Positions 1,793-60,470 of a DNA stretch of 64,000 bases are shown in pieces. The stretch is from assembly GCA_017515105.1 (NCBI GenBank), contig JAFWHO010000003.1, positions 1-64,000 of the forward strand, in the 5' to 3' direction. Positions within the stretch are counted from its first letter, which is position 1; each line of letters begins with the position of its first letter. Made by a program: the position numbers and the translations under genes. This stretch comes from Candidatus Saccharimonadota bacterium (GTDB lineage: Bacteria > Patescibacteriota > Saccharimonadia > Saccharimonadales > Saccharimonadaceae). The notes under the pieces are model-generated. The model did no database searches and was not told the DNA's origin. It saw only the letters and a list, made by a program, of their open reading frames with translations.

Positions 1793-4012
1793 ATGAATTT
1801 AAATGAAGAGAAGAGGCGTGCCCGACTCTTAAAATCAAGGGCAGAAAGGTTGCCAGGAATTAAGCGGCAATTCGAGGAATCACAGGGGCGGAAGGCCCAA
1901 GATTCTGCTGTTTCTGGTGTAGATGAATTTGAGGCAGCCCAGAACCGAAATTTTAACTCAAATTTTGCCCCTGGAGGCAAAGATGCTAAATTGGTGCCTA
2001 GTAAGGCCGGAAAGCAGTCTGAGGCCAAGAAAGCGGCAAAAAAAGGCGCTGGAGCGAAAAAAGCTGCGAAAACTACTAAAACTTCCAAGAAAAACAATCC
2101 TCAGGCCAAAACAGAGGCGGAACAGAGGAAAGTTAATTTGTCCGTATCTGTTAAGAAGGGTGACATGGTTCACCATCAGAGGATGCTTTCTCAAGATGTG
2201 AATGCGCAGGCAACACAGCATATTATTGGGGTGCCAGTGAATAAATCTCGTTATAACGGGTATGACGGCACTCAAATCACCAATGCTAGATTGAAACAGA
2301 TGAGACCGGATCCGGAAGCTGTACGGGTAATCCCGATCGGTGGTGTTGGGGAGTTTGGTATTGGTAAAAATATGACGATTATTGAGTATAAGAGCGAAAT
2401 GATCGTGGTTGATATGGGTGTACTGTTTGCAGGGGAGGATTACCCTGGTGTAAACTACATGATTCCTGATATTAAATATCTAGAGGATAATATTGCTAAA
2501 GTGAAGGCGATTTGCTTTACTCACGCTCACCTTGATCATATTGGGGCGTGTAGGCATTTATTGCCAAAATTTGGTACGAATATCCCAGTTTACGGTACTG
2601 ATTTTACGATTGGAATGATTAAAAAACAGATGTCGGAGCTCGACGAGGAGCCGGATATGAATTATATCGCTGTGGATCCTTTGAAACATGAGAAAATTCA
2701 GGTTTCTGAGCATCTAAGCGTTGAGTTTATCCATACTTTACACTCTATTCCGGGTAACGCTGCGATTGTGGTGAGGACACCAAATGGAACAATTTATCTA
2801 TCTGGCGACTGGCGTGCTGAGACTCGCCCGATGGGGATTCAGACCGATTATGAGAGGCTTGACGAGATTGTAGCGAAAGAGGGGATTGATTTGATGCTTA
2901 ATGAATCAACCAACATTGATTCGCCGGGGAAGCATCCGCATTCTGAGTACGATGTAGGGGATAACCTCGGTAAGGTGATGGATAATTATGTGAATGGTCG
3001 TGTGATTATCTCGTGTTTCTCCTCACAGATTCTAAGGATTGAGCTTATTTTGAAAGAGGCGGCTAAGAGGGGTCGCAAGGTGGCATTTTCGGGCTTTTCA
3101 ATGATCAATAACCTCGAGGTAGCACTTAGGGCTAAATCAATCAAAGTGCCAAAAGACACCATTGTGAAGATGGAAGACATCATCAAGATGCCGGACGAGA
3201 AGGTTTGCATTGTGTGTACTGGGTCACAGGGCGAGTTAAATGCTGTGCTTAACCGTATGATTACAGGTGCCCACAAATACATCAAGATTAAGTCAACAGA
3301 TACGATCGTGTTCTCATCGAACCCGATTCCGGGCAACGAGCCACACGTGGTTTCAACTGTGGACGGGCTTTTGCGCGAAGGTGCACAGGTGATTCAAAAC
3401 GGTAAGACGCATCTTACCAACATTGGGCCTTTGCATTTGTCTGGTCATGCTTACTATGAAGATCATGTGGAATTTGTGACAAGAATGCAACCAAAGAACT
3501 ATATGCCATATCACGGTGAGTTCTATATGTTGGAGCACAATGCTGAAATGGCTGAAAATGTGGTTGGGATCCCGCGTGATAGGATTTTGGTGGCCGATGA
3601 TGGTGATATCGTGGAACTAATGCCAGATAAAACCATTAAGAAGGCTGGTCGTATCCATGTGGGGAATAAGCTATTTGACGATGCTGACCAGCCGGTGCAT
3701 GAAGCCGTGGTGAAAGACAGGATTCATATTTCAAGAGAAGGGATTTTCGTGATTGTGCTGACGCTATCGAAAAAGACCGGTCATTTGATGAAGACGCCGG
3801 ATATTGTGTCTAGGGCATTCATTTACCTAGATAATTCGGAAGAGCTGATTGGTAAAATTCGACATTATCTAAGACAAAAGACTGATAAGTCGATCTCGAC
3901 CGATCCAGAAATGAAGGTTTTGAAGGAAGAGATCAAGGAAGATATTACACATATCTTGTTTGATGCGACTGGACATACACCGATTGTGATCCCAGTGATC
4001 AATAAGGTATAA
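1793..4012 (+). CDS. rnj: Ribonuclease J with long basic N-terminal extension
   Basis: 739 residues. RNase J is a metallo-beta-lactamase/beta-CASP nuclease with 5'-3' exo- and endonuclease activity in mRNA decay and rRNA maturation. The MBL core begins near residue 175 (VRVIPIGGVGEFGIGKNM) and has the metal motif HAHLDH near 244-249, followed by beta-CASP and C-terminal domains. The first ~175 residues are an extra, disordered-looking tail with a lysine/alanine-rich stretch around 80-105. A start at ATG 1793 is supported by AAAAAGGAAA just upstream and by a strong promoter; an upstream in-frame start at 1469 would run through the nusA gene and is rejected. Usual RNase J length is about 555 residues. 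Confidence 0.93.
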   Translation: MNLNEEKRRARLLKSRAERLPGIKRQFEESQGRKAQDSAVSGVDEFEAAQNRNFNSNFAPGGKDAKLVPSKAGKQSEAKKAAKKGAGAKKAAKTTKTSKKNNPQAKTEAEQRKVNLSVSVKKGDMVHHQRMLSQDVNAQATQHIIGVPVNKSRYNGYDGTQITNARLKQMRPDPEAVRVIPIGGVGEFGIGKNMTIIEYKSEMIVVDMGVLFAGEDYPGVNYMIPDIKYLEDNIAKVKAICFTHAHLDHIGACRHLLPKFGTNIPVYGTDFTIGMIKKQMSELDEEPDMNYIAVDPLKHEKIQVSEHLSVEFIHTLHSIPGNAAIVVRTPNGTIYLSGDWRAETRPMGIQTDYERLDEIVAKEGIDLMLNESTNIDSPGKHPHSEYDVGDNLGKVMDNYVNGRVIISCFSSQILRIELILKEAAKRGRKVAFSGFSMINNLEVALRAKSIKVPKDTIVKMEDIIKMPDEKVCIVCTGSQGELNAVLNRMITGAHKYIKIKSTDTIVFSSNPIPGNEPHVVSTVDGLLREGAQVIQNGKTHLTNIGPLHLSGHAYYEDHVEFVTRMQPKNYMPYHGEFYMLEHNAEMAENVVGIPRDRILVADDGDIVELMPDKTIKKAGRIHVGNKLFDDADQPVHEAVVKDRIHISREGIFVIVLTLSKKTGHLMKTPDIVSRAFIYLDNSEELIGKIRHYLRQKTDKSISTDPEMKVLKEEIKEDITHILFDATGHTPIVIPVINKV

Positions 4013-4023
4013 TCTTCCAAATG

Positions 4024-4054
4024 TTCCTCGGTTCAGGCCGGGGAATATTTGTTT
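4024..4054 (+). terminator. Probable terminator after rnj
   Basis: TTCCTCGG (4024-4031) pairs with CCGGGGAA (4038-4045), followed by a modest T-rich stretch. The -10 box of the next gene starts only 5 bases beyond. Confidence 0.6.
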
Positions 4055-4072
4055 ATGTTATAATGAGGTCAT

Positions 4073-4840
4073 ATGAAATATGATGTAATTGTGATTGGTG
4101 CAGGTATGGCGGGACTTACGGCTGCGATTTATTTGAAAAGAGCTGGGAAGAATATTTTGGTGCTTGAGTCTAATGTTGTTGGCGGTCAAATAATCAGTGC
4201 TCTCGCGGTTGATAATTGGCCGGGTGAGCCAGGAGTTTCGGGCGCGGATTTGATGAAAAAAGTTAACCGTCAGGTAGAGGAACTGGGTGTGTCGGTAAGA
4301 TATGAGGATGTTCTGAAGATTGTAAAGAAGAATCATAAATTCTCTGTTGCGACCGATGAGGATAAATATTCTTGTGATGCGATTGTTGTAGCTACTGGGA
4401 CAGAACCTCGGAAGCTGAGCGAAAAACAAGCAGAAGACGCAGGGATGAGACCGATTTCTTATTGTGCAACTTGCGACGGAGCTTTGTATAAGGATAAAAC
4501 GGTGGTTGTGGTGGGGAGTGGAAATACGGCAAAGCACGAGATAAAGTATCTAGAGGGTATTTGTTCGAAAGTTTATCATATTCATCACGATGAGCCGATT
4601 CCAGAGGAGGCTGAAGCAGTGTTCGTGGCGATTGGAAGGGTGCCGGCAACTAAGATTGTAGTGGATTTGGTAGAACTTGATTCTAAAGGGTATATTGAGG
4701 CCGATGAAGATTGCGTGACGTCGTGTCCGGGAGTTTTCGCGGCGGGAGATTGTCGCACGAAAGAAGTTAGGCAGCTCGTAACAGCGGCTGGAGACGGAGC
4801 AGCGGCGAGTGAGGCAGTGCTTAGATATTTGGAAAAGTAG
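4073..4840 (+). CDS. trxB: Short thioredoxin reductase-like FAD flavoprotein
   Basis: 255 residues against about 305-320 for bacterial TrxB, which passes electrons from NADPH through FAD to thioredoxin. Visible are the FAD motif GAGMAG (9-14), the redox pair CATC (131-134), a second Rossmann motif GSGNTA (148-153), and the FAD-binding GD at GVFAAGDC near the end. The NADPH domain lacks roughly 45-50 residues: the sequence jumps from KVYHIHHDE (166-174) almost directly to AVFVAIG (182-188), and the HRR signature that holds the NADPH phosphate is missing. Leaderless: TATAAT 4059-4064 lies 8 nt before the ATG. Confidence 0.85.
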   Translation: MKYDVIVIGAGMAGLTAAIYLKRAGKNILVLESNVVGGQIISALAVDNWPGEPGVSGADLMKKVNRQVEELGVSVRYEDVLKIVKKNHKFSVATDEDKYSCDAIVVATGTEPRKLSEKQAEDAGMRPISYCATCDGALYKDKTVVVVGSGNTAKHEIKYLEGICSKVYHIHHDEPIPEEAEAVFVAIGRVPATKIVVDLVELDSKGYIEADEDCVTSCPGVFAAGDCRTKEVRQLVTAAGDGAAASEAVLRYLEK

Positions 4841-4867
4841 AAGTAAAATATGATATAATATAGGGGT

Positions 4868-4952
4868 GCTCGGATGGCGGAACTGGTATACGCGTTCGAC
4901 TTAAAATCGAATGGGGAAACCCGTGCGGGTTCGATTCCCGCTCCGAGCACCA
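4868..4952 (+). tRNA. tRNA-Leu (anticodon UAA)
   Basis: Acceptor GCTCGGA pairs with TCCGAGC, the discriminator is A4949 and CCA is encoded (4950-4952). The anticodon stem TTCGA/TCGAA encloses CTTAAAA with anticodon TAA. A long variable arm is present, as expected for Leu. The -10 TATAAT is at 4854-4859, so the transcript begins almost at the mature 5' end. Confidence 0.95.
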
Positions 4953-5016
4953 ACACCTAATGGTGCTAAAAAAGTTGGAATTCGTTCTTCGAATCGATTC
5001 CCGCTCCGAGCACCAA
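4931..5016 (+). repeat. Direct duplication of the tRNA-Leu 3' end (23 bp, two copies)
   Basis: The last 23 bp of the tRNA region (4931-4953, T-loop through CCA plus one A) recur exactly at 4994-5016, 63 bp downstream. The second copy has no D or anticodon arm, so it is a 3' fragment and not a second tRNA. It looks like an attachment-site duplication or recombination scar. Confidence 0.85.
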
Positions 5017-5055
5017 AGAATAAAAAGAAGCCGCTTGCGGCTTGTTTTTATTCTT
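5016..5055 (+). terminator. Bidirectional terminator after tRNA-Leu
   Basis: AAGCCGC (5028-5034) pairs with GCGGCTT (5037-5043). The stem is extended by an A-rich arm (5016-5026) facing TTTTTATTCTT (5045-5055). A smaller CCCG-CTT-CGGG hairpin followed by six Ts lies at 5078-5094. Confidence 0.85.
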
Positions 5056-5150
5056 TAGCGAGGTCAGGGAAGACTTTCCCGCTTCGGGTTTTTTGTTACT
5101 TAAAAATTTGACATGATATAATGAGGATATAAACATAAGTAAGGGAGCGT

Positions 5151-6119
5151 ATGGATAACAAGACAGTATACAAGAAAACATTAACGTTTTCGCTTAGACG
5201 CTTAGCGTGGGATTTGGCGTCTTTTGTTGTAATAGTTATTTTGGCGGCGGCGGGGTTTTTGCTGGCTGAAAAATTGGCAAATAGCGGTCTGATTGGACTA
5301 GCTATTGGAATTGTAATCGGTATTATTGTTGTAGCGATTGCGTCACATTTTATTTCGTACGTGTTTAAAGCTGGACAAATTGCGATGATGACAAAGGCTG
5401 TGACGGAGGGGAAGCTCCCCGATGACGTGTATGGTGAGGGTAAGAAGATTGTGAAGGAGAGATTCTTGACAGTTGCAGCATACTACGCGGCTACAAATGC
5501 AATTAAAGGGATTTTTAACCAATTAGGCAATGCGATTACGTCGGTAGGCCAAGCGGTGGGTGGTGATACTGGTAATGCGGTTGGTAGTACTATTTCTGCA
5601 GTAATTCAGACGATAGTGAACTACCTGTGTGATTGCTGTCTTGGCTGGGTGTTTTATCGCAAGGATAAAGGCGCGGTGAAAGCTACGCTTGAGGGGGCGG
5701 TGCTGTTCTTTAAACATGGCAAGACTTTGCTCAAGAATCTTGGGCGTGTATTTGGAATTGGGCTTCTTTCGTTGGTGGTGATAGGCGGGGTTTTCTTTGG
5801 AATTTTCTATTTAATTTCGTTGGCAATTCCAGGTGTATATAATGAGTTGGCGAATGCGATTTCTGAGCTTAGTGCGGAGGGTTCTACGGATTTGGAATTC
5901 TTGACGAATATCCAGAATTTGATGCTTATCGTGTCGGGGATCGGTGGCGTGATAATGTGGGGTATATTGCATTCGACATTTGTGCGTCCGTTTATCTTGG
6001 TAGGAGTGCTTCGCAATTATATCGAATCTGGTAAAGACGAGGCGTTTACTGAAAAAGATTTTGATGAGTTGGATAAAAAATCCAAAAAGTTTCAAAAGCT
6101 GCATGCTGAAGCTAAATAG
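5151..6119 (+). CDS. Multi-pass membrane protein of unknown function
   Basis: 322 residues. Hydrophobic segments are seen around residues 20-45, 45-70, 150-165, 200-230 and 255-280, the last before a charged C-terminal tail ending KKFQKLHAEAK. The GQAVGGDTGNAVGSTISAV region in the middle is small-residue rich. I do not recognise a named family. It has its own promoter (TATAAT at 5117-5122) and a Shine-Dalgarno AAGGGAG ahead of ATG 5151, so it belongs to the leadered class. It is monocistronic. Confidence 0.8.
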   Translation: MDNKTVYKKTLTFSLRRLAWDLASFVVIVILAAAGFLLAEKLANSGLIGLAIGIVIGIIVVAIASHFISYVFKAGQIAMMTKAVTEGKLPDDVYGEGKKIVKERFLTVAAYYAATNAIKGIFNQLGNAITSVGQAVGGDTGNAVGSTISAVIQTIVNYLCDCCLGWVFYRKDKGAVKATLEGAVLFFKHGKTLLKNLGRVFGIGLLSLVVIGGVFFGIFYLISLAIPGVYNELANAISELSAEGSTDLEFLTNIQNLMLIVSGIGGVIMWGILHSTFVRPFILVGVLRNYIESGKDEAFTEKDFDELDKKSKKFQKLHAEAK

Positions 6120-6172
6120 TTTTAATTATAGATAGATTGGTTTAGATTGTTGGTTTTTGCTACAATAAAGGT

Positions 6173-7624
6173 ATGACGAAGAGTTATATTGCGATAGATT
6201 TGAAGTCTTTTTATGCGTCGGTGGAATGCGTGGAGCGGGGGCTTGATCCTTTGACGACACATTTGGTGGTGGCGGATTTGTCGCGAACCGAGAAAACGAT
6301 TTGTCTTGCTGTGTCGCCGGCTTTAAAGGAGTATAGTATTTCAGGGAGGGCGAGGCTATACGAAGTGGTGCAAAAAGTGCGTGAGATTAATCGGGCGAGG
6401 GAGCGAAAATATGGGAAGAAACTTACGGGTAGTTCGACGGATGCTAAGGAGCTTGCTCGAGATCCGTCACTTGCTCTTGATTATATCGTAGCGGTACCAA
6501 GGATGGCGTTTTATATTAGTTATAGTACTAGAATTTACAATGTTTATTTGAAGTACGTTGCTGAGGAGGATATGCATGTTTATTCGATCGATGAGGTGTT
6601 TATAGATGCGACGCCGTATCTCAAAACGTATAAATGCTCGGCGCATGAGCTGGCGATGAGGATAATTCGGGATGTTTTGAAAGAGACTGGCGTGACGGCG
6701 ACGGCGGGGATTGGTACAAATATGTATCTAGCAAAAGTCGCAATGGATATTGTGGCGAAACATACAGCGCCTGATCAGGATGGGGTAAGAATTGCGGAGC
6801 TTGATGAAATGAGCTATCGTGAGAAACTGTGGAATCATAGGCCGCTTACGGATTTTTGGCGAGTAGGGAAAGGTTATGCAAAGAGGCTAGAATCGGCGGG
6901 GTTAAAAACGATGGGTGACATAGCGCTCTGTTCAGAAAAAGACGAAGACTATCTTTATAAAATGTTCGGGATAAACGCGGAGCTTTTGATCGACCATGCG
7001 TGGGGCTGGGAGCTGTGCGAGATAAGCGATGTAAGGGATTATCGTCCGAGCACGAATTCTTTTTCATCTGGGCAGGTTTTGAAGGAGCCGTATGATTTTA
7101 AAAGGGCACGCGTGGTGGCGCTTGAAATGGCGGATGAAGTGGCTTTGAATCTTTTAAAGAAAAAACTGATGACAGATCAAGTTGTTCTGACGGTTGGGTA
7201 TGATAGGGCGAGTCTTTCAGGTTATGGAGGTGAGACGAAACTGGATTTTTATGGGCGGGAAGTGCCAAAGCATGCGCACGGGACAAAGAACTTAAAACAA
7301 TATACGTGTTTTTCTGGTTCGATTCGCGAGGCGGTGGAGGAATTGTTTGATGAAATTGTAGACCCTAAATTATTGGTACGGAGAATTACGATCGACGTTA
7401 ATCGGGTGAAAAGTGAAAAAGATGCCCTGAAAGAGCCACGGCAACTTGATTTATTTGAGGGGGCGGTGGATGCCGAAAAAATGGAAAAAGGTGGACGAGT
7501 GGATGCGGCGATGCTGTCGATCAAAAAGCGCTATGGTAAGAATGCGATTTTGAAAGGTATAAATTTTGAGGATGGGGCGACGGGGCGCGAGCGAAATGCG
7601 CAAATAGGAGGGCATCGAAAATGA
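6173..7624 (+). CDS. Y-family DNA polymerase (UmuC/DinB-like, UvrX type)
   Basis: 483 residues; a translesion polymerase acting at damaged DNA. The N-terminus IAIDLKSFYASVE carries the first catalytic Asp (the motif is usually D.naFFasVE), and YSIDEVFID near residues 139-147 carries the catalytic Asp-Glu pair. A helix-hairpin-helix region follows and then a little-finger domain with FSSGQVLKEPYDF. The length and partner match the Gram-positive UvrX/YqjW branch and not compact DinB. Leaderless: TACAAT 6161-6166, six bases before the ATG. The stop overlaps the start of the YolD gene (ATGA). Confidence 0.9.
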   Translation: MTKSYIAIDLKSFYASVECVERGLDPLTTHLVVADLSRTEKTICLAVSPALKEYSISGRARLYEVVQKVREINRARERKYGKKLTGSSTDAKELARDPSLALDYIVAVPRMAFYISYSTRIYNVYLKYVAEEDMHVYSIDEVFIDATPYLKTYKCSAHELAMRIIRDVLKETGVTATAGIGTNMYLAKVAMDIVAKHTAPDQDGVRIAELDEMSYREKLWNHRPLTDFWRVGKGYAKRLESAGLKTMGDIALCSEKDEDYLYKMFGINAELLIDHAWGWELCEISDVRDYRPSTNSFSSGQVLKEPYDFKRARVVALEMADEVALNLLKKKLMTDQVVLTVGYDRASLSGYGGETKLDFYGREVPKHAHGTKNLKQYTCFSGSIREAVEELFDEIVDPKLLVRRITIDVNRVKSEKDALKEPRQLDLFEGAVDAEKMEKGGRVDAAMLSIKKRYGKNAILKGINFEDGATGRERNAQIGGHRK

Positions 7625-12556: not shown

Positions 12557-12661
12557 AGCGAAGAGACTCTAACTCTCGCTTTGAAAAACGAGAGTTAGCC
12601 AACAAAATAAGGCTACCTAGAGCCCTAAAGTGTGGTGCGAGCGAAGAGACTCTAACTCTCG
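12557..12661 (-). repeat. Duplicated and inverted fragments of the tRNA-Gly T-arm
   Basis: A 22-bp piece of the tRNA-Gly 3' part (12640-12661) is repeated exactly at 12557-12578, downstream of the tRNA 3' end. A 10-bp inverted copy (CGAGAGTTAG, 12589-12598) pairs with 12569-12578 to make a hairpin. The fragment copy lacks the other tRNA arms. The intervening bases show nothing else recognisable. Confidence 0.85.
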
Positions 12662-12709
12662 ACCTCTTCCTTGGCAAGGAAGCGCTCTAAACAACTGAGC
12701 TACGCTCGC
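12633..12709 (-). tRNA. tRNA-Gly (anticodon GCC) with unusual 19-56 pair
   Basis: Acceptor GCGAGCG/CGCTCGC, discriminator A, encoded CCA. Anticodon arm CTTCC-TTGCCAA-GGAAG gives GCC. The T stem is GAGAG/CTCTT and the D stem GCTC/GAGC. The D loop AGTTGTTTA has U where G19 belongs and the T loop TTAGAGT has A where C56 belongs, so the invariant G19-C56 pair is replaced by U19-A56. All stems are intact. The minus-strand -10 TATAAT (12731-12726) is upstream. Confidence 0.9.
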
Positions 12710-12796
12710 ATATTTACGTGTTCTCATTATATCATACTTTTTCCGGAAATGCGATAAAAAGTGATATAATGGTTATATAAAATAAAGGAGAACAAA

Positions 12797-18756: not shown

Positions 18757-18831
18757 TGGTGATCTCGGCGGGAGTCGAACCCGCGTTGTCGGGATGAAAA
18801 CCCGATGTACTAACCGTTATACTACGAGACC
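18757..18831 (-). tRNA. tRNA-Glu (anticodon UUC)
   Basis: Acceptor GGTCTCG pairs with CGAGATC (one G-U); discriminator A; CCA encoded. Anticodon stem TCGGG/CCCGA encloses TTTTCAT with anticodon TTC. The T loop is TTCGACT. The promoter on the minus strand is TTGTAA, 16-nt spacer, TATAAT (TGC extended), and the short leader contains the near-palindrome ATATACACCGTGTATAT. Confidence 0.95.
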
Positions 18832-59126: not shown

Positions 59127-60470
59127 TTACAAATCGCTGATTTTAACTCTGGTTTGCCTGGTGGTGTCACGATCACGAACGGTGACAGTGTCGTCGTTCA
59201 TGGTATCAAAATCAATTACGACGCAACTTGGAGTGCCGATTTCGTCTTGTTTGCGATAGCGTTTGCCGATATTGCCGGAATCATCCCAGGTGACGTTACC
59301 GTATTTTTTGCGGAGTTTGTCGTAGACTTCGCGAGCTTTCTCGACGAGTTCTGGTTTGTTTTTGAGAAGTGGGGAAACGCAGAATCTAAATGGGGCGAGG
59401 TTTTCTGGCAATTTAAGGATGGTCCTTTTCTCGCCGTCGATTTCGTCTTCGGTGTAAGCGGAAGAAAGGACGGCTAGGAATAGGCGCTCGACACCGATTG
59501 ATGGCTCGATGACGTGTGGGACAAATGTCTCATTTGTAGTCTTATCGCGGTATGCCATTGATTTGCCGGAGGCCTTCTCAATATTCATGAGGTCAAAATC
59601 GGTACGATAAGCAAGGCCCATGAGCTCTTCTTCACCATTTGGATAGTCAAACATAAAATCGATAGTGCGTTTGCTATAATGGGCGCGGTCTTCGGCTGGG
59701 ACTTCAAGTTCGTGGATTTTTGATTTCGGCAAGCCCATGACGCCTTCTAGGAATTCGTGATGAAGAGTGCGCATAGTTTCGAAGTTTTCTTCCCATGTGG
59801 ATGGGTTGACGAAGTATTCGATTTCCATCTGAGAACATTCGCGGTCACGCAAGATGAAGTCGCGTGGGCTAATTTCGTTACGGAAGGCTTTGCCCTGCTG
59901 GGCAAGACCAAATGGAATATTCGGGTAAATAGTGTCGACAATATTCTTGTAGTTTGTGAAAATTCCTTGGGCGGTCTCTGGTCGGAGGTAGGCGACGCCT
60001 TTTTTGGCGACTTCTTGGTCGTCATCGGGGAGTACTGCGCCTACGTGGGTCATAAACATCATGTTGAATTTACGGATTGGGCCCCAGGATTCTTTGCCGC
60101 AGACTGGACACTTGGTATGGGTCGCCAAGAATTCCTCGGTGGTAACTGATTCACTGATACCGTCGGCTATTTTGTCGGCGCGAAAACGAGATTTACATTC
60201 TTTGCATTCAACTAGTGGGTCTGCGAAGGTAGCAGTGTGGCCGGAAGCTTCCCAGGTTTTGGGGTTCATCAGGATGGCTGCGTCGATGCCGTACATATCT
60301 TCGCGATTCTCGACGAAGAATTTCCACCACTCGTCCATGATTTTCTTTTTTAGTAAAACACCAAGTGGACCAAAATCCCAGGTGCCGGCGAAACCGCCGT
60401 AGACGTCGGAGCCAGGGAAAATGAAACCGCGACGCTTACATAAACTTACGATATTGTCTAATTTTGCCAT
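59127..60470 (-). CDS. glyS: Glycyl-tRNA synthetase (dimeric alpha2 type)
   Basis: 447 residues. Class II synthetase of the archaeal/eukaryotic/Gram-positive single-chain type, not the alpha2beta2 type. CKEC and CPVC form a zinc site in the N-terminal insertion; motif 2 FRNEISPRDFILRDREC, motif 3 GVERLFLAVL, and a C-terminal anticodon-binding domain (APFRFCVSPLLKNKPELVE). Leaderless: minus TATAAT (60482-60477), six bases before ATG. Its substrate set would include the unusual tRNA-Gly at 12633. Confidence 0.96.
   Translation of the reverse strand: MAKLDNIVSLCKRRGFIFPGSDVYGGFAGTWDFGPLGVLLKKKIMDEWWKFFVENREDMYGIDAAILMNPKTWEASGHTATFADPLVECKECKSRFRADKIADGISESVTTEEFLATHTKCPVCGKESWGPIRKFNMMFMTHVGAVLPDDDQEVAKKGVAYLRPETAQGIFTNYKNIVDTIYPNIPFGLAQQGKAFRNEISPRDFILRDRECSQMEIEYFVNPSTWEENFETMRTLHHEFLEGVMGLPKSKIHELEVPAEDRAHYSKRTIDFMFDYPNGEEELMGLAYRTDFDLMNIEKASGKSMAYRDKTTNETFVPHVIEPSIGVERLFLAVLSSAYTEDEIDGEKRTILKLPENLAPFRFCVSPLLKNKPELVEKAREVYDKLRKKYGNVTWDDSGNIGKRYRKQDEIGTPSCVVIDFDTMNDDTVTVRDRDTTRQTRVKISDL

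Follow-up and report, generated by a model that had tools for sequence, protein, structure and literature searches.

The locus lies on a contig of a Candidatus Saccharimonadota bacterium, of which the first 64,000 nucleotides were analyzed; we refer to this whole stretch as the window. The features that concern us are collected in Table 1. They comprise a tRNA-Gly(GCC) gene with its immediate signals, a repeated piece of that same gene behind it, and, far away in the window, the synthetase that presumably charges the tRNA.

Table 1. Features of the tRNA-Gly(GCC) locus and the presumed charging enzyme, in window positions
Feature	Position	Strand	Basis
Exact 22-nt repeat of 12640-12661 (T arm and acceptor 3′ side of the tRNA)	12557..12578	-	
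Hairpin; right arm is the start of the T-arm copy, left arm its inverted copy	12569..12598	-	
Intrinsic-terminator-like stem-loop directly 3′ of tRNA-Gly(GCC)	12608..12627	-	
tRNA-Gly(GCC), CCA encoded	12633..12709	-	ARAGORN and Rfam
TATAAT, -10-like box, 16 nt upstream of tRNA-Gly(GCC)	12726..12731	-	by eye
Glycyl-tRNA synthetase, dimeric (alpha2) type, presumed charging enzyme	59127..60470	-	TIGR00389

The TATAAT box is absent from the list produced by the consensus scanner. The tRNA gene matches the Rfam family RF00005 with 68.8 bits, and no non-standard stem pair is flagged. On the minus strand its 5′ part reads GCGAGCG UA GCUC AGUUGUUUA GAGC G CUUCC UUGCCAA GGAAG, and the rest is AGGUC GAGAG UUAGAGU CUCUU CGCUCGC ACCA. 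In standard numbering, the two unusual residues are U19 (window 12691) and A56 (window 12653). Elsewhere the tRNA is unchanged: all stems, G18, U54, U55, A58, G15-C48 and the CCA end are as usual. The letters fit the G18-U55 and U54-A58 contacts, and Watson-Crick pairs at 15-48 and at 19-56, the latter being U-A and not G-C. The T stem, GAGAG/CUCUU, pairs as G49-U65, A50-U64, G51-C63, A52-U62 and G53-C61. A preliminary description, made from the window's letters alone, had reported U19 and A56 in a tRNA with intact stems, GCC anticodon and CCA, and normal residues in the other three tRNAs of the window. ARAGORN, Rfam and the sequence itself confirm the former, and all three of the other tRNAs do have G19 and C56.

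Copy number and the role in translation

The source genome consists of 811,401 bases in four contigs and is 99.38% complete. It has 46 tRNA genes by RF00005, all of which we typed with ARAGORN after fetching the 42 that lie outside the window in 31 stretches. Just one of the 46 has the GCC anticodon, and a second tRNA-Gly(GCC) of the normal type is not found among them. Each anticodon has one gene, with the exception of CAU, which has two. Both tRNA-Gly(UCC) and tRNA-Gly(CCC) are present, each with G19 and C56. (The tRNA-Gly(CCC) has a peculiarity of its own, a C55 in the T loop TCCGACT, where U or pseudouridine is expected.)

As the sole tRNA-Gly(GCC) among 46 tRNAs, the gene in the window would have to serve translation. 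And since GGU and GGC make up 711 of the 1180 glycine codons in 38 open reading frames of the window, it should be indispensable. The synthetase matches TIGR00389 with 467.4 bits together with its neighbours, against a cut-off of 243.3. We infer that the tRNA is charged and used in translation, and we are confident that this is the genome's ordinary, essential tRNA for GGU and GGC codons.

The 19-56 pair in relatives and in tRNA-Ala

G19-C56 is regarded as a constant of elongator tRNAs, and RNase P, the ribosome and a number of enzymes make contact with it. We searched 30 relatives using a pattern that leaves positions 19 and 56 free. The pattern matches in 19 of them, and all 19 have U19 and A56. 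Within the genus, 17 of 18 genomes match, and all of them are U19-A56.

For the phylum, an even draw of 379 Patescibacteria genomes was searched, and the pairs were tallied by hand from the matched sequences. This pattern fixes the D-stem letters GCTC/GAGC, so that the 316 genomes without a match are uninformative. The 63 matched genes have G-C in 23 cases, A-U in 11 and U-A in 29, with no mismatched pair at all. By our own arithmetic, a random pairing of the same two columns would produce about 38% Watson-Crick pairs, a comparison in which related genomes do not count as independent. In the genome's own class, 35 of the 37 genomes drawn have a match, 28 with U-A, 7 with A-U and none with G-C. 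The 342 genomes of other classes give 28 matches, with 23 G-C, 4 A-U and a single U-A, the last on a contig (C252 of genome G373) that is possibly foreign. Searching named genomes, we find tRNA-Gly(GCC) with T19 and A56 in at least 118 stretches, and the group names among the 80 titled matches listed are Saccharibacteria, Patescibacteria and one Nomurabacteria. Conservation in relatives had been proposed as a check in the preliminary description; changes of this type are found throughout the class. The U-A or A-U state is clade-wide, and the two positions covary without mismatches. As a side observation, the U19/A56 pattern has one match in viral contigs, at 773-826 of an IMG/VR contig (L202).

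The change is not restricted to glycine. All three tRNA-Ala genes of the genome, (UGC), (CGC) and (GGC), at loci L001, L013 and L020, have A19-U56, and for this clade it was thus an overstatement to call G19-C56 universal. The other 42 of the 46 tRNAs retain G19-C56, the changed ones being the three Ala and the one Gly. A joint Ala/Gly pattern was run over 117 genomes of the class. Among the matches listed, tRNA-Ala(UGC) in the genus is A-U, except for U-A in G001, G449 and G468, and in other genera it is nearly all G-C, with A-U in G450. No mismatched 19-56 pair was seen among these listed matches. Within this class of bacteria, tRNA-Gly(GCC) no longer has G19-C56, and tRNA-Ala has given it up in part.

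The alanyl-tRNA synthetase (AlaRS) of the genome has 627 amino acids and ends after the editing domain (L177, 1486-3369), and its only Pfam domains are tRNA-synt_2c and SAD. In all 46 class genomes searched, the AlaRS match never goes beyond position 716 of the 847 in the profile, and one of them (G432) has a weak SAD match only. From these profile matches, the C-Ala domain seems to be missing across the class, in all 45 genomes where AlaRS was detected. As described for prokaryotic AlaRS, C-Ala touches the tRNA elbow (PMC7033119). Loss of C-Ala was considered as an explanation for the altered tRNA-Ala and rejected, as the domain is absent whether tRNA-Ala(UGC) is G-C or not. Given that tRNA-Ala(UGC) is G-C in most of the genomes lacking C-Ala, the loss cannot be a sufficient cause. 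It may be a permissive factor at most, not one that forces the change at 19-56. The metazoan mitochondrial tRNA-Ala/AlaRS system, as described in PMC7033119, resembles this one in combining a relaxed elbow with an altered elbow-binding domain of AlaRS. The mitochondrial enzyme retains a re-adapted C-Ala; in our case the domain is missing from AlaRS, and the 19-56 pair is still Watson-Crick.

Readings of the altered elbow

The 19-56 interaction is a Watson-Crick pair whose exposed flat outer face is recognized by proteins, RNAs and the ribosome (PMC4810234). The explanation that we favor is a compensated drift, in which positions 19 and 56 would have changed together and G-C would have given way to U-A in this genome and to A-U in some relatives, both again Watson-Crick. 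Most partners that read the elbow stack on the pair's flat face, so that any Watson-Crick pair can serve. A Watson-Crick swap retains the flat outer face, and hence the change would be tolerated. An AlaRS without the elbow-binding C-Ala and a dimeric glycyl-tRNA synthetase could have been permissive, as neither enzyme would then need G19-C56. The change in tRNA-Gly(GCC) is probably close to neutral, and the reading as a tolerated compensated variant, one of two offered in the preliminary description, is supported by the sole copy, the clade-wide state and the covariation of the pair. Compared with a canonical bacterial tRNA-Gly(GCC), the tRNA has in common the cloverleaf, the GCC anticodon, C2-G71, A73, CCA and G18, as well as U54-U55, A58, G15-C48 and the T-stem pairs for EF-Tu; the difference lies in the 19-56 pair, which is U-A instead of G-C, and A-U in other members of the clade. 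The class, with A-U or U-A in essential Ala and Gly tRNAs, amounts to a natural experiment suggesting that a stackable Watson-Crick pair may suffice, and it allows domains that read the elbow, such as C-Ala of AlaRS, to be compared.

Pure neutrality leaves one thing unexplained, the confinement of the change to Ala and one Gly tRNA. An alternative is that the pair is an adaptive label, with A-U or U-A marking Ala and Gly tRNAs for or against some reader of the elbow, be it a synthetase, an editing enzyme or a modification enzyme. That only Ala and Gly tRNAs are changed in this genome, and that G-C occurs in none of the 35 matched tRNA-Gly(GCC) genes of the class, is what such a label would look like. 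But A-U and U-A are both found within one isoacceptor, tRNA-Gly(UCC) and tRNA-Gly(CCC) of the same genome remain G-C, and tRNA-Ala(UGC) is G-C in most of the listed genera. We consider a label unlikely.

Much less probable still is a specialised, non-ribosomal donor of glycine comparable to the staphylococcal cell-wall tRNAs, the other role for which the preliminary description had made room. In S. aureus, three of the five tRNA-Gly genes lack the strong EF-Tu pairs G49-U65 and G51-C63 and have A49-U65 and A51-U63 instead, and the same three have UU or CU at 18-19, as reported in PMC4052509. There is a resemblance, in that both these pentaglycine tRNAs and the tRNA in the window depart from GG at 18-19. 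The latter deviates at 19 and in the T loop, the former at both 18-19 and the T arm (PMC4052509). On every feature examined, the comparison speaks against such a donor. The cell-wall tRNAs that PMC4052509 describes are extra copies that have lost G18 and carry A49-U65 and A51-U63; here we have a sole copy with GU at 18-19, with G49-U65 and G51-C63 retained, and with a T-loop change that compensates for the one at 19. The matched gene of the relatives has the same state. A special role is thus unsupported: the gene is the only tRNA-Gly(GCC) of the 46 and its change is class-wide, a situation in which, by the preliminary description's own account, it is a normal translation tRNA. A side role of the tRNA beside translation may exist. 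An artefact of assembly or sequencing, or a pseudogene, has a negligible probability, with the same two letters in many separate genomes (sequencing error was rejected on the 19 of 19 matched relatives) and all stems of the gene intact.

Hairpin units behind tRNA genes

The class-wide departure from G19-C56 is of moderate interest; more surprising are the hairpin units. Behind tRNA-Gly(GCC), the T-arm repeat lies 83 nt from its source, start to start, a short way past the terminator. The hairpin unit has a folding z of -5.11. T-arm copies behind tRNA-Gly occur in 6 of 17 genomes of the genus, some in tandem. When tRNA-Gly loci are compared, duplicate genomes included, 27 of 143 entries include a copy at some place in the locus; in three of the 27 (L144, L147, L156), what matches is a gene resembling tRNA-Gly(CCC) at a distance of kilobases and not a hairpin unit. 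A dispersed repeat can be rejected: in six genomes searched for it, the 16-nt Gly T-arm with at most one mismatch appears behind tRNA-Gly only, and its other matches all have 2 mismatches, the limit of the search. In two loci (L133 and L066), we observe tRNA-like copies downstream of tRNA-Gly(GCC), two of them in tandem in L133. These copies retain the acceptor-stem ends, the T arm and CCA, but their D region is larger, and a simple hairpin stands where the anticodon arm would be.

Other tRNA genes have such units too. In this genome, 13 of the 46 tRNAs have their own last 18 nt copied downstream (at most 2 mismatches, within 250 nt) and none upstream, while 2 have their first 18 nt copied downstream. 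At other loci, 3′-end copies are found downstream in 27 of 296 and upstream in 1, and 5′-end copies in 6; a few of all these 18-nt copies may be neighbouring tRNA genes. The tRNA-Gly(GCC) gene is not one of the 13 because its copy has decayed at the acceptor end. Units with the 3′ end of their own tRNA stand behind at least 13 of the 46 tRNAs besides tRNA-Gly(GCC) (loci L002, L005, L010, L011, L015, L018, L019, L021, L024, L026, L029 and L030); most of the units include a hairpin, and tandem arrangements are frequent. As an example, tRNA-Leu(UAA) (4868-4952) has a copy of its 3′ end at about 4994-5015, 41 nt downstream, with a hairpin ahead of the copy.

Many of the hairpins follow one plan: the arms match the tRNA, next comes a slight mismatch or bulge, and the tip, three pairs long, is capped by a loop of 3-4. 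Between units the letters of the tip vary and the pairing is kept (GACC/GGTG, TACC/GGTG, GGC/GCC, CTC/GAG, TTC/GAA, TAC/GTA). The folding z of 21 units, hand-picked for clarity, ranges from -1.68 to -6.77. A search for the tip motif in 30 genomes of the genus yields 17 matches in 9 genomes, and 15 of the 17 lie behind a tRNA and are followed by the 3′ end of that tRNA. The remaining two are a tRNA-Ser 3′ fragment in a locus without a tRNA (L194), and a match with neither a tRNA nor a 3′ end that looks like chance (L198). The five matches in the genome itself are all at tRNAs, twice Asn, twice Ser-GCU and once Thr. Neither the Gly hairpin nor the tip motif flanked by ANTC has a match in viral contigs.

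How these units arise is a guess. Small DNA (or RNA) hairpins could insert at the T arm of a wide range of tRNA genes; by restoring the 3′ end, each unit would leave its tRNA whole, and tandem expansion would follow. At tRNAs with CGA or CAA at 56-58, the units often start at C56. The A56 of tRNA-Gly removes that motif, and most copies in the genome's own group start at C48-G49-A50, another CGA. The start positions are suggestive of a shift from C56 to C48 in tRNA-Gly. There are exceptions: one copy starts at nt 54 despite a TTAGAG T loop (L156), others at 57 (L083) and 51 (L105, L115), and at other tRNAs a unit start at nt 58-61 is common. That the T-arm copies belong to a tRNA-anchored system of hairpin elements in Patescibacteria, with the T-loop change and the hairpin linked, is a tentative idea that we hold at low confidence. 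The copying of tRNA ends may be phylum-wide, as three loci outside the class also have such copies, and the units that follow so many tRNA genes may represent a novel type of tRNA-associated element. Among the titles and abstract beginnings of open-licence papers we found no earlier description of the 19-56 swap or of these tRNA-end units, which leaves their absence from the literature unproven.

Attachment sites of tyrosine recombinases occur in tRNA 3′ ends. The likeness is a downstream direct repeat of the tRNA 3′ end (12557-12578) that leaves the tRNA whole. But these units are mostly about 60-130 nt without cargo, stand at many different tRNAs, and each comes with an inverted copy that forms a hairpin. 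No integrase-bearing cargo lies within the window's 83 nt. In one locus (L118, about 3100-7260), an islet of about 4.2 kb separates tRNA-Gly from a distal T-arm copy, with hairpin-like stretches at both ends, one of them next to tRNA-Gly. None of its five longer ORFs has a tyrosine recombinase match in Pfam; they are a Y1 transposase (E-value 2e-7), an alpha/beta hydrolase, a C39-peptidase-like protein and two unassigned. A Y1/RAYT transposase was considered as a candidate maker of the hairpins: by tblastn, this is the one locus with a Y1/RAYT-like protein among those searched, and in the genome itself the Y1/RAYT match is below the cut-off with a stop inside. The genome has two tyrosine recombinases, one XerD/XerA-like and the other of 300 amino acids (C4:237513), nearest to XerA/integron models and below their cut-offs.

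Further repeats were seen along the way. In three loci outside the class (L171, L172, L173), copies of tRNA-Leu and tRNA-Gly 3′ ends from nt 54 onwards stand directly behind short AGCAGT/ACTGCT-like hairpins. A different repeat of about 170 nt, beginning right after CCA or a few bases on, lies behind tRNA-Ile(GAU), tRNA-Val(CAC), tRNA-Val(UAC) and tRNA-Leu(CAA) (L001, L006, L008, L027). And a shared stretch resembling TTCAAGGAAACGAG, followed by hairpins, is found behind tRNA-Ala(UGC), tRNA-Ile(UAU) and tRNA-Glu(UUC), at L001, at L004 and in the window behind 18757-18831.
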